From contig JAQUSS010000012.1 in the NCBI GenBank assembly GCA_028710135.1, forward strand, positions 1 through 37,964: a stretch of DNA of 37,964 nt, given 5' to 3'. Of the stretch, positions 1 through 37,964 are shown piece by piece. Numbering within the stretch: the first letter of the stretch is position 1; each line of letters begins with the position of its first letter. The translations under genes were made by a program, and so were the position numbers. Under the pieces are notes generated by a model that worked only from the letters and a program-made list of their open reading frames with translations, was not told the origin of the DNA and made no database searches. This DNA is from Gemmiger sp. (GTDB lineage: Bacteria > Bacillota > Clostridia > Oscillospirales > Ruminococcaceae).

Positions 1-802
1 TTGTGCCCCAATCTGTGGTCTGTGGCATAGGGGGGGTTCTGTAGGGCCACCATACATGGTGGCCGCCAAACGGGGGCACCGGGCCTTGGCAAAAACGACC
101 CGCCGCACCCCGACCCACCGACCCCCGCACCGTCCACCCGCCGCGTTGGGTGACCCCCAAACCATGCAACCCGCCACCGCCCCGACCCCCGCACCGTCCG
201 CCCGCCGCGCCGGGGCACCCCCCAAACCATGCAACCCGCCGCGCCGGGGTACCCCGCAATGCGCGCCGCGCCCTGGGGGCGGCCACCATGTATGGTGGCC
301 CTACGGAGGTTGTGGCCGGGGATGCCCCCCGCCCGGGTTTGCGGCATAGGCCAGGGATGCCCCCCAATCCGTGGTCTGTGGCACGGGGCGGGAATGTGCC
401 CCAATCTGTGGTCTGTGGCATAGGGTGGGTTCTGTAGGGCCACCATACATGGTGGCCGCCAAACGGGGGCACCGGGCCTTGGCAAAAACGACCCGCCGCA
501 CCCCGACCCACCGACCCCCGCACCGTCCACCCGCCGCGTGGGGCACCCCCCCGAACCATGCCGCCCGCCGCGCCGGGGCACCCCGCAATGCCCGTCGCGC
601 CCTGGGGGCGGCCACCATGTATGGTGGCCCTACGGAGGTTGTGGCCGGGGATGCCCCCCGCCCGTCCTGGCACCCCCCAAACCATGCCACCCGCCACCCC
701 ACGGCACCCCCGCAATGCCCGCCGCGCCCTGGGGGCGGCCACCATGTATGGTGGCCCTACGGGGGTTGCGGCCGGGGATGCCCGCCGCCACCCAAACCAA
801 CC
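1..802. repeat. GC-rich block of hairpin repeats (five cores)
   Basis: There is no credible gene here; the open frames are translations of repeats. Five copies of a perfect 20-bp inverted repeat, GGCCACCAT-(AC or GT)-ATGGTGGCC, lie at 45-64, 281-300, 438-457, 610-629 and 737-756. Copies at 45 and 438 read GTAGGG-core-CCGCC in the plus direction. The other three are inverted and are followed by CCCTACGG. Proline-codon-like CCG/CCC runs fill the space between. The same core recurs in the blocks near 22.7-23.5, 29.9-30.6 and 37.7-38.0 kb. The repeats are seen directly; their function and mobility are unknown. Confidence 0.9.
395..538 (+). repeat. Second copy of a 144-bp direct repeat (first copy 2-145)
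   Basis: Bases 395-538 repeat 2-145 at a constant offset of 393 bp. I saw one mismatch, G33 against T426. The copy includes one GTAGGG-hairpin unit and its CAAACGGGGGCACCGGG-type flank. The following segments (146-345 and 539-665) are also related but have diverged by deletions and substitutions. A recent tandem duplication of a repeat-bearing segment is the simplest explanation. Confidence 0.85.
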
Positions 803-22720: not shown

Positions 22721-23470
22721 AGGCGGCCTCCGTAGGGGCACGATACATCGTGCCCGCCCAATGGGGGTGACGGGGTTCGGCAAAAAATATGCCGTGCCCG
22801 TGTTGGGGCACAAATATGCCCCCCGCGCCGTGTCGCGGGCAAACCCACAATCCCCGCAACCCACCAGGGCCGGCCACCATGTATGGTGGCCCTACGGAGG
22901 TTGCGTCGCCCAACCCGCCCTGGTAAAATTTGTGTCGCCCGCCCCACATGGGGCCTCCGTAGGGGCACGATACATCGTGCCCGCCCAACGGGGGCAACGG
23001 GGTTCGGCAAAAACGGCATTGCGCCCGTACGGGGGTGAAATTTGTGCCACGCGCCGTGTTGGCCAACGCACATCGCAAAATTTTCCCCGCCCGCCGTGCC
23101 GGAGGCAACCCACAACCCCCGCCACCCCGATGGGGGTTGCGGCGGCCAACGCACATGGTAAAATTTGTGCCGCCCGCCGTGTTGGCCAACGCATCATGGC
23201 CCAATTTGCACCGCCCGCCACATGGGGCCTCCGTAGGGGCACGATACATCGTGCCCGCCCAACGGGGGCAACGGGGCCTGGCAAAAACGGCATTGTGCCC
23301 CTGGCGGGGTGAAATTTGTGCCACGCGGCATATCGGGGTGAAATATGCCCCGCCCGCCGTGTCGCGGGCACCCCACAACCCCTGCCACCCACCGGGGGCG
23401 GCCACCATGTATGGTGGCCCTACGGTTGCGTCGCCACCCTGTCAACATTTCCCCCGCCCGCCACACGAAA
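22721..23470. repeat. Intergenic block of hairpin repeats (three B-type, two A-type)
   Basis: Type B cores GGGCACGATACATCGTGCCC lie at 22736-22755, 22963-22982 and 23237-23256, each preceded by CCGTAGG and followed by GCCCAA and a CGGGG...GGCAAAAA flank. Type A cores (GGCCACCAT/ATGGTGGCC, inverted) lie at 22872-22891 and 23400-23419. Words such as AAATTTGTGCC and CCGCCCGCCGTGTTGGCCAACGCA-like modules repeat between them. Open frames on both strands only translate the repeats. No gene is supported. Confidence 0.9.
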
Positions 23471-23506
23471 TGGCGGCAGGAATCGGCCCACCCTTATCCG
23501 CATCCG

Positions 23507-23548
23507 CCTGTTTACGGACATCCGTAAACAGGTTTTTTCTTTTGTTTT
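23507..23548 (+). terminator. Intrinsic terminator downstream of the repeat block
   Basis: CCTGTTTACGGA (23507-23518) and TCCGTAAACAGG (23521-23532) are perfectly complementary, with the effective loop formed by the centre, followed by TTTTTTCTTTTGTTTTT. The nearest plus-strand gene, def, ends about 790 bp upstream, so the repeat block may be transcribed through to this point. Confidence 0.85.
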
Positions 23549-26590: not shown

Positions 26591-26705
26591 GTAGGGGTCG
26601 ATGCCCACATCGACCCGCAAGGTAGCGGCAATTCCCGGGTCGATGCCCACATCGACCCGCAAGGTGGCGGCAATTTCCGGGCCGATGAAGGGCATCGGCC
26701 CCTAC
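26591..26705. repeat. 42-bp tandem hairpin array bounded by GTAGGGG/CCCCTAC
   Basis: Three units begin at 26595, 26637 and 26679, exactly 42 bp apart. Units 1 and 2 carry GGGTCGATG-CCCA-CATCGACCC hairpins. Unit 3 carries GGGCCGATG-AAGGG-CATCGGCCC, in which both arms changed together. The whole array starts with GTAGGGG (26591-26597) and ends with the complementary CCCCTAC (26699-26705). It lies between the 85-aa gene and the HD-GYP gene, whose ATG is only 24 bp further, so it would form structure in any read-through mRNA. Confidence 0.88.
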
Positions 26706-29929: not shown

Positions 29930-30580
29930 GCACCATAGGGGCGGCCACCCACAAACCCCGCACCCCGCCGGGGCCCGGCCACCATGTATGGTGGCCCTAC
30001 GGTGGTTGCGGCGATTACAACGCACATGGTAAAATTTGCACCGCCCACCACATGGGCCCCCGTAGGGGCACGATACATCGTGCCCGCCCAATGGGAGCAA
30101 CGGGGCCTGGTAAAACCGGCATTGTGCCCGTGGTGGGGCCAAATTTGTGCCGTGCGGCATACCGGGGAAAAATTTGCCCCACCCACCGTGCTGCGGCACC
30201 CCACAAACCCCGAACCTCGCCAGGGCCGGCCACCATGTATGGTGGCCCTACGGTGTTGAGGCCACGATAGGGCCTCCGTAGGGGCACGATACATCGTGCC
30301 CGCCCCACGGGGGCAACGGGGTATGGAAAAACCGGCATCGCACCGTATGGGGGCAAAATTTGCACCGCCCACCCAATGGGGTTGCGGCGGGGGTGGGGGG
30401 CCGCCCGCCGCGTGGGGGTAATCCCCGGAACCATGCCGCCCGCCGCATCGTGGCACCGCGCGCCGCGCCCTGGGCCCGGCCACCATGTATGGTGGCCCTA
30501 CGGGGGCGGCATGAATCGAGGGTTCCGGCGCGGCGGCCAACGCGCCATGGCAAATTTGCACCGCCCACCACATGGGGTTG
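29930..30580. repeat. Intergenic block of hairpin repeats (three A-type, two B-type)
   Basis: Type A cores (inverted, ending CCCTACGG) lie at 29977-29996, 30228-30247 and 30478-30497. Type B cores lie at 30066-30085 and 30282-30301. As in the 22.7-23.5 kb block, B units are followed by a GCCC-ACGGGGGCAACGGGG flank and A units by GGTTGCG or GGGGCGG. The block ends near the 3' end of the minus-strand AraC gene and has no credible coding sequence. Confidence 0.9.
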
Positions 30581-37734: not shown

Positions 37735-37964
37735 CCGCACCGCGCGCCGCGCCCGGGGGTCGGCCACCATGTATGGTGGCCCTACGGAGGTTGCGGCGTG
37801 AATCGGGGGTTCCACCGTGGGGCCAACGCGCCCTGGCAAAATTTGCACCGCCCACCACATGGCGGCCTCCGTAGGGGCACGACACATCGTGCCCGCCCAA
37901 TGGGGGTGACGAGGCCCGGTGAAAACGGCATGGTGCCCGTGGTGGGGCAACATTCACCCTGCGT
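37735..37964. repeat. Hairpin repeat block at the window end (one A-type, one variant B-type)
   Basis: A type A core is at 37762-37781, followed by CCCTACGGAGGTTGCGG. A type B core is at 37875-37894 with one change (GGGCACGACACATCGTGCCC), preceded by GCCTCCGTAGG and followed by GCCCAATGGGGGTGACG. Open frames here are shadows of the repeat. Sequence from 37495 to 37627 contains no gene that I can support. Confidence 0.9.

Follow-up and report, generated by a model that had tools for sequence, protein, structure and literature searches.

What kind of element comes in two forms that differ from each other only at base-pair partners of a perfect stem? The question is raised by a 37,964-nucleotide contig of Gemmiger sp. 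(GenBank accession no. JAQUSS010000012.1, assembly GCA_028710135.1; here, the window), in which two palindromic hairpins, types A and B, recur in four arrays. Our analysis indicates that these hairpins are probably repetitive extragenic palindromes (REPs) tagged with a GTAG foot, which would be moved or copied by a REP-associated tyrosine transposase (RAYT) that reads the foot together with the paired stem. A REP-type site for a transposase acting in trans was one of the options named in a sequence-only reading of this DNA. Clear evidence now points to it: stem pairing is kept across species, the host genome has an intact RAYT-type gene, and GTAG hairpins accompany most RAYT-like loci of the genus.

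Two hairpin types and their copies

Each unit consists of 24 nt, namely, a GTAG foot and a 20-nt palindrome with a 9-bp stem and a 2-nt centre. Types A and B mismatch solely at positions 3, 7, 14, and 18, which are the partner pairs 3/18 and 7/14, and both differing pairs are C-G to G-C swaps. The 20-bp layout and the pair swaps had been described in the sequence-only reading and are confirmed at the coordinates below. The thirteen copies given there were too few, as the window holds 17 A/B hairpins (11 of type A and 5 of type B without any change, plus a B at 37871 with a single stem change), all 17 with the GTAG foot; the A palindrome at 23400-23419 falls just beyond the span of 22736-23256 that had been assigned to the repeats. 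The units, which we regard as putative REPs, are as follows (found by sequence match; for the first B of array 2, its position after a gene is given).

41..64, plus strand, type A, array 1
281..304, minus strand, type A, array 1
434..457, plus strand, type A, array 1
610..633, minus strand, type A, array 1
737..760, minus strand, type A, array 1
22732..22755 (palindrome 22736-22755), plus strand, type B, array 2, 11 bp past the peptide deformylase stop codon
22872..22895 (palindrome 22872-22891), minus strand, type A, array 2
22959..22982 (palindrome 22963-22982), plus strand, type B, array 2
23233..23256 (palindrome 23237-23256), plus strand, type B, array 2
23400..23423 (palindrome 23400-23419), minus strand, type A, array 2
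29977..30000, minus strand, type A, array 3 (in a gap between convergent genes)
30062..30085, plus strand, type B, array 3
30228..30251, minus strand, type A, array 3
30278..30301, plus strand, type B, array 3
30478..30501, minus strand, type A, array 3
37762..37785, minus strand, type A, array 4
37871..37894, plus strand, type B, array 4, inner pair broken (position 9, T to C)

When up to 3 mismatches are allowed and palindromes are scored on both strands, the window has 22 matches to type A, against a mean of 0.03 and a maximum of 2 in dinucleotide shuffles, and 12 matches to type B (shuffle mean, 0). A chance origin of the copies is excluded. The host genome assembly (2.8 Mb, 229 contigs, 88% complete) contains 119 exact A or B copies with GTAG, or 131 when AC or AT is accepted in the loop (T at the second loop letter). 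Neither type was found in any of the 34 other genus genomes searched or in the 296 other family genomes sampled, and the A/B sequences are confined to one genome among all those searched. For variation and arrangement we used the window plus stretches on contigs up to C194, a set of 25 arrays with 120 hairpins (up to 3 mismatches allowed), of which 100 match exactly.

Conservation of the stem

The GTAG foot is exact in 118 of the 120 copies. Stem letters are changed at 8 of 2,160 positions, whereas the loop is altered in 14 of 120 copies (240 positions). The stem thus changes at a rate 16-fold below that of the loop (Fisher P = 1e-9, taking 14 of 240), a P value that is optimistic because copies of the same array are not independent and because copies with more than 3 changes and some with an altered foot were not collected. 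The majority-letter frequency averages 0.98 to 1.00 inside the REP and is about 0.4 at a distance of 40 to 60 bp. All eight stem changes within types affect one side of a pair only, breaking it in seven cases and leaving G-T in one; two-sided changes are absent. A and B are two stable, homogeneous end types and not a sample of many compensatory events.

The covariation that supports the hairpin lies between families and species, not within the genome. A scan of bacterial genomes, with a pattern in which some letters were fixed and four pairs were free (one limited to C or G on both sides), gave at least 140 matches at 115 or more loci, with at least 57 distinct hairpins in at least 75 accession groups. 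Among the matches listed, which include loci from Clostridia, Eggerthellaceae, Chloroflexi, Pantoea, Gallionella, Bacteroidales, and Planctomycetota, 211 of 228 cells at the free pairs are Watson-Crick, against 99.1 on average and at most 120 in 2,000 shuffles; related rows inflate the figure, yet the gap to the shuffles is very large. Orthologous RAYT genes of the genus give a closer view. The internal hairpins of genomes G007 and G013 are identical within a 700-bp region that is 88% identical overall, and the G014 ortholog has other stem letters at both internal hairpin sites, with pairing still perfect. (An apparent swap of REP types between two orthologous RAYT genes was wrong; the order is the same in both, and the orientation of the loci had misled us.)

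The hairpin structure is therefore maintained, as had been proposed from the sequence, on the strength of the cross-species pairing and of the low rate of stem change. The paired swaps had been taken as the pattern left by selection or copying that preserves the stem; compensation of this kind is visible between families and not in the variation within types. Unpaired changes as frequent as paired ones had been named as the outcome that would speak against that reading, and, taken literally, that is what the copies within the genome display.

A and B as strand-coupled partners

Within the 25 arrays, 80 of 95 neighbouring pairs are inverted, with spacings of 0 to 528 bp between inverted A/B neighbours. 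Opposite-strand neighbours are AB in 64 cases, AA in 16, and BB in none, while shuffling the types within arrays gives means of 40.5 AB (maximum, 56), 30.4 AA, and 9.1 BB (minimum, 2). Same-strand neighbours are AA in 11 cases, BB in 3, and AB in 1. In the 21 mixed arrays, 100 of the 106 hairpins follow a rule by which the B copies share one strand and the A copies the opposite one, and the polarity is constant inside 19 of these arrays. A and B are strand-coupled partners, a point overlooked when the two variants were first described.

A second REP family in the window, located by hairpin listing and a family search, is also made of inverted partners.

26591..26616, plus strand, second-family REP, GTAG + GGGTCGATG..CATCGACCC type
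26679..26705, minus strand, inverted partner, GGGCCGATG..CATCGGCCC type, with one compensated pair difference

The two differ at one pair, T-A versus C-G. A third hairpin, without GTAG, lies inside this locus (26636-26659), which is flanked by LuxR-type and HD-domain regulator genes. Among the matches listed for this family in five genomes (most of the 76 copies of G033 lie outside them), all 31 inverted neighbours at up to 430 bp differ at the chosen pair, with a non-Watson-Crick pair there in one partner of 3 of them, and 8 of 9 tandem neighbours agree at it, the exception having a mutated pair. The letters vary by species under the same rule, being AT/CG in G006, G017, and G032 and TA/CG in G000 and once in G014. 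Across other genomes, in 34 accession groups, there are 43 distinct inverted pairs of equal length, and 33 of these are heterodimers (1 to 5 stem pairs differing); tandem pairs are identical in 5 cases, differ once in 2, and differ at three or more pairs in 11. These counts were made after removal of duplicates per accession group and on hairpins whose stem is perfect over 8 bp or more, so that mismatched copies are uncounted; 27 pairs of different length lie outside them.

RAYT-type transposase genes

The Pfam Y1_Tnp model matched 19 of 35 genus genomes and had no match in the host genome. A genus RAYT profile was built from eight of the weaker Y1_Tnp hits, seeds that were picked after their flanks were known; the weak hit L138, which lacks hairpins, was kept out, also after its flanks were known. 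This profile has five matches in the host genome: one intact (contig C31), one with a stop (C106), and three partial. With this result, a reading of A and B as orphan REPs was dropped.

The C31 frame has 220 codons between stops and encodes 187 amino acids from the first Met. Its MPNHIH (HUH) motif and the Y and N of YIDTNP align with Escherichia coli TnpArep (PDB 4er8) and with the genus proteins; this Y is presumably the catalytic tyrosine. The protein matches NCBIfam REP_Tyr_transpos with an E value of 2.2e-15, and TnpArep 4er8 is its best and only match among solved structures (E value of 0.0025 for C31 alone and of 5.8e-10 for the genus profile without C31). An A/B array starts 173 bp from the open frame, about 270 bp upstream of the first Met. 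The earlier suggestion had been to look for a RAYT gene with the same hairpin in its flanks; the C31 gene has an A/B array on one side only.

Across the genus the profile has 37 matches, of which 30 have a locus; subtracting three second gene pieces leaves 27 loci. Of these 27 loci, 23 have a GTAG hairpin internally or no more than 330 bp away, as against none of 8 IS200-type loci, where flanks were shortened by contig ends in L014, L016, and L018. Internal inverted GTAG pairs were seen in the open RAYT frames of L137, L139, L142, L143, and L145 (by eye) and likewise of L159, L163, L174, L175, L177, L182, and L183. In the five RAYTs inspected by eye, the two internal hairpins stand on opposite sides of the HUH codons, and the segments that they encode, such as IVGRG and RPxPT, vary with the REP family. 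At L162 (G028, contig C13, 1989-2299), eleven GTAG hairpin units, mostly 31 bp apart, follow directly after a RAYT-like gene; they may be read in frame with it, because the reported open frame has 583 amino acids. At L178 (G000, contig C106, 1501-1872), a RAYT-like gene with an internal stop has hairpins of its own (GGGGCGGATA..TATCCGCCC type), with 10 copies in the genome, some of them at RAYT fragments on C45 and C98.

Identity and proposed mechanism

The A/B hairpins have the features of GTAG-tagged REPs (a conserved foot, 131 copies in mostly intergenic positions, and complementary stem sub-types), and inverted doublets are their common arrangement, as in bacterial interspersed mosaic elements (BIMEs) and REPINs (REP doublets forming hairpins); the C31 protein is of the Y1 HUH type expected of a RAYT. 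In the proposed mechanism, a RAYT, for which the intact C31 gene is the best candidate, would recognise, on single-stranded DNA, the folded stem together with its GTAG foot, and would move or copy the inverted pair as a REPIN-like unit. If the enzyme needs pairing and tolerates different pair letters, stems would change in paired steps between families. Biochemical work on purified TnpAREP (PMC8266576) shows that with perfect-palindrome REPs the GTAG steers both recognition and the selection of the site to be cleaved, that cleavage is severely impaired by a mismatch in the stem, and that the effect of complementing the stem is moderate or depends on the position. Such results are expected of an enzyme that reads pairing more than letters, and they agree with the paired change between families.

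Several observations weigh against the assignment. (i) The REP_Tyr_transpos score of C31 (56.8) does not reach the curated cut-off of 80 (two genus proteins score 61.5 and 77.4), and Pfam Y1_Tnp missed the gene. (ii) A/B hairpins flank C31 on one side, with none inside the gene and none in 1.35 kb downstream. (iii) The aligned C31 protein has H at a Q of E. coli TnpArep that is listed among the GTAG-contact residues in the available part of PMC6006769. (iv) Four of the 27 RAYT-profile loci (L160, L169, L172, and L173) lack a nearby hairpin, and truncated flanks affect 3 of the 8 IS200 controls. L138 (G007, contig C53, 2271-2609) also has no GTAG hairpin in its 5-kb stretch; it encodes a longer Y1-transposase-like protein of another type (295-codon frame). 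(v) Loop letters matter to the TnpAREP enzymes tested in PMC8266576 (available part), and the loop varies in 14 of our 120 copies. (vi) No movement was seen and no empty site could be demonstrated at the deformylase locus of relatives, where, in the five relatives in the right orientation, an ATG lies 11 to 14 bp past the stop codon (six minus-strand loci were not used). (vii) A single A-B founder could have passed on the strand coupling.

Computed folding of inverted dimers

Why should the inverted partners differ? A tentative answer is that partners of the same sequence would pair with each other in one long duplex and that the two swapped pairs would let each hairpin fold locally. Folds were computed with DNA parameters, excluding dimers with starts more than 260 bp apart (one each of 29, 35, and 10 dimers). 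A single hairpin has an energy of -9.4 (A) or -9.6 (B) kcal/mol, and the cross-duplex has -33.4 for AA, -33.8 for BB, and -18.6 for AB. With natural spacers, AB dimers are predicted to fold locally in 27 of 28 GTAG-in and 24 of 34 GTAG-out cases (51/62 together), and in none of either set (0/28 and 0/34) when both ends are made A or both B. Natural AA dimers never do so (0/6 GTAG-in and 0/9 GTAG-out), and placing A/B ends on the GTAG-out AA dimers makes 6 of 9 local. In the host species, two swaps thus suffice to switch the computed fold from a long duplex to mostly local hairpins.

The same calculation gives local folding for 50 of 69 natural heterodimers in other genomes and 39 of 55 in genus relatives, against 0/69 and 0/55 for identical-end controls. 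Much of this is supplied by partners of different length (26/27 and 36/38, respectively); among equal-length heterodimers the counts are 24 of 42 in other genomes and 3 of 17 in genus relatives. One differing pair gives local folding in 4 of 25 cases and two pairs in 9 of 19. Natural homodimers exist as well (19 in the other-genome and genus fold set), none of them local, and the two A/B swaps are not the best placed, ranking 5 of 21 two-pair flips for weak cross-pairing.

We therefore put forward only tentatively that the swaps of inverted partners are an orthogonality code, in which matched divergence keeps each hairpin readable by the RAYT and avoids annealing of the partners; on balance we think it unlikely. 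It is rated apart from the REP assignment, and its probability is lowered by the small number of equal-length heterodimers of genus relatives that fold locally. The partners of the second family differ at one pair, where the folding idea works worst. Furthermore, unlike hairpins always cross-pair less, so that the folding result is a consequence of the swaps and not proof of selection for it.

Alternative explanations and surroundings of the arrays

The strongest competitor, to which we give a substantial though minority chance, is that the heterodimers are functionless, a founding A-B unit having been amplified by local tandem duplication with its strand coupling inherited. Array 2 does contain block repeats (119 nt, with copies 69% and 90% identical to the reference copy), most mixed arrays have a constant polarity, and only 3 of 17 equal-length heterodimers of genus relatives gain local folding from their differences, all of which speaks for it. 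A single founder accounts poorly for species of one genus that use other letters at the same pair under the same rule, or for the heterodimers that prevail among equal-length inverted pairs from 34 accession groups.

Another possibility, which we consider improbable, is that the hairpins are 3'-untranslated-region RNA elements that stabilise mRNA, serve as processing sites, or act as terminators, every single copy being maintained by selection. The gene context lends it something. Array 2 is bounded by the end of the deformylase gene and by a terminator-like hairpin, a class of consensus site of which the stretch has 6, against 2.9 in shuffles.

23506..23533, plus strand, intrinsic-terminator-like hairpin plus T run, downstream of array 2 (consensus match)

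Genes were called on both sides of 13 arrays, of which 10 lie in tandem gaps, 3 in convergent gaps, and none in divergent gaps, which make up 11 of 54 background gaps of the same stretches; the other 12 of the 25 arrays have only one flanking gene called, 10 of them being at the start or end of a contig and 2 at a stretch end. The arrays lie mostly in gene gaps, although the simple gene caller used here set 4 of the 25 partly inside a predicted open reading frame. The locations agree with REPs, and an RNA effect is compatible with them too, as it is with a stem that varies less than the loop at the same sites. However, no T run after the A/B hairpins was listed in the window, no Rfam family was matched there, the near-perfect palindromes fold about equally on either strand, and the A/B sequences were not found in the 296 other family genomes searched. 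A cellular RNA role also predicts neither the conserved GTAG foot nor the association with RAYT genes.

We regard as very unlikely a copying mechanism, such as template switching in which one arm is rewritten from the other, that made the paired swaps without structural selection. Double transversions from C-G to G-C cannot pass through a G-T wobble, and flips (CG/GC or AT/TA) make up 25 of the 53 pair differences in 29 distinct inverted 20-nt pairs of other genomes; random REP pairs from different loci have a near-equal flip share (0.451), and an excess of C-G flips was accordingly rejected as a signature. No recent arm rewriting is visible in the 120 copies, since their stem changes are all one-sided. 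Sites of chromosome organisation bound by gyrase or nucleoid proteins, as reported for E. coli BIMEs, would suit alternating inverted palindromes that lie mostly in gene gaps, and we give this reading hardly any credence for sequences that appear in one genome only among those searched.

The REP itself may be part of a longer repeat.

22756..22783, plus strand, head-side flank of type B, array 2 (letter conservation over 43 B copies)

Over these 43 copies the mean majority-letter share is 91% in the first 10 nt and 81% in the next 18 nt of the flank, with the consensus GCCC.ATGGGGGCAACGGGCCTTGG.AAAA next to B and GCCCCC.GGGGGC next to A. The repeated unit may be about 50 nt long, because the flank forms a possible second small inverted repeat.

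Relation to known systems

Compensated sub-types and preferred heterodimers were already published in 2013, in a survey of GTAG REPs (Di Nocera et al., PMC3733652) that describes alternative complementary stem residues and a preference for heterodimers in most families; what we add is the A/B family itself. (Statements on this and the other papers cited refer to the parts of their text that were available.) The families surveyed share with A/B the GTAG foot, the RAYT association, and the location in tandem or convergent gene gaps, as well as stems of 6 to 13 bp, loops of 2 to 3 nt in many, head-to-head and tail-to-tail dimers, and heterodimers, a likeness drawn from text descriptions and not from consensus sequences. 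The available main text of the survey does not contain "Firmicute" or "Clostridi", unlike the Clostridia host here. A search of the literature on REP/RAYT in Faecalibacterium, Clostridia, Firmicutes, and Gemmiger, with subscription journals mostly uncovered, found nothing relevant, and the available parts of PMC7771070 (insertion-site prediction) and PMC12306157 held nothing relevant to REP/RAYT in Clostridia.

The REPINs of Pseudomonas fluorescens SBW25 (Bertels and Rainey 2011, PMC3116915) are likewise inverted doublets whose ends are conserved and whose spacer is less so, with a RAYT beside the clusters and tandem clusters; their ends are the same invariant 16-mer, whereas the A/B ends differ and are 0 to 528 bp apart. 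In the proposal of those authors, RAYTs recognise a "clover" of two local hairpins, and recognition of a long, stable REPIN hairpin is unlikely. TnpAREP subclass 2.4 (PMC6006769) resembles the genus relatives in having REPs inside the transposase gene, as in their open RAYT frames, and a stem base of G-C pairs is shared; by eye, the five inspected Gemmiger RAYTs appear to differ from it in the inverted pair that brackets the HUH codons. E. coli BIMEs, including y and z REPs (PMC8266576), also combine non-identical REP types as mosaics at many loci, although E. coli REPs are bulged, imperfect palindromes and A and B are perfect.

On the heterodimer preference, the 2013 survey states that it "has no obvious explanation" and then suggests escape from hairpin-removing enzymes (PMC3733652, available text); the computed fold, with the version in which the hairpin must be readable by a RAYT, goes beyond that suggestion. 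If true, the orthogonality code would give a mechanism for this preference. Through the fold switch, the remark of 2013 becomes a numerical, testable proposal, and its failure in some genomes shows where to test it; the folding test of heterodimers is the point worth following. Our analysis adds a GTAG REP family and its likely RAYT from one Gemmiger-type genome of the Clostridia, a group unnamed in the available main text of the 2013 survey.
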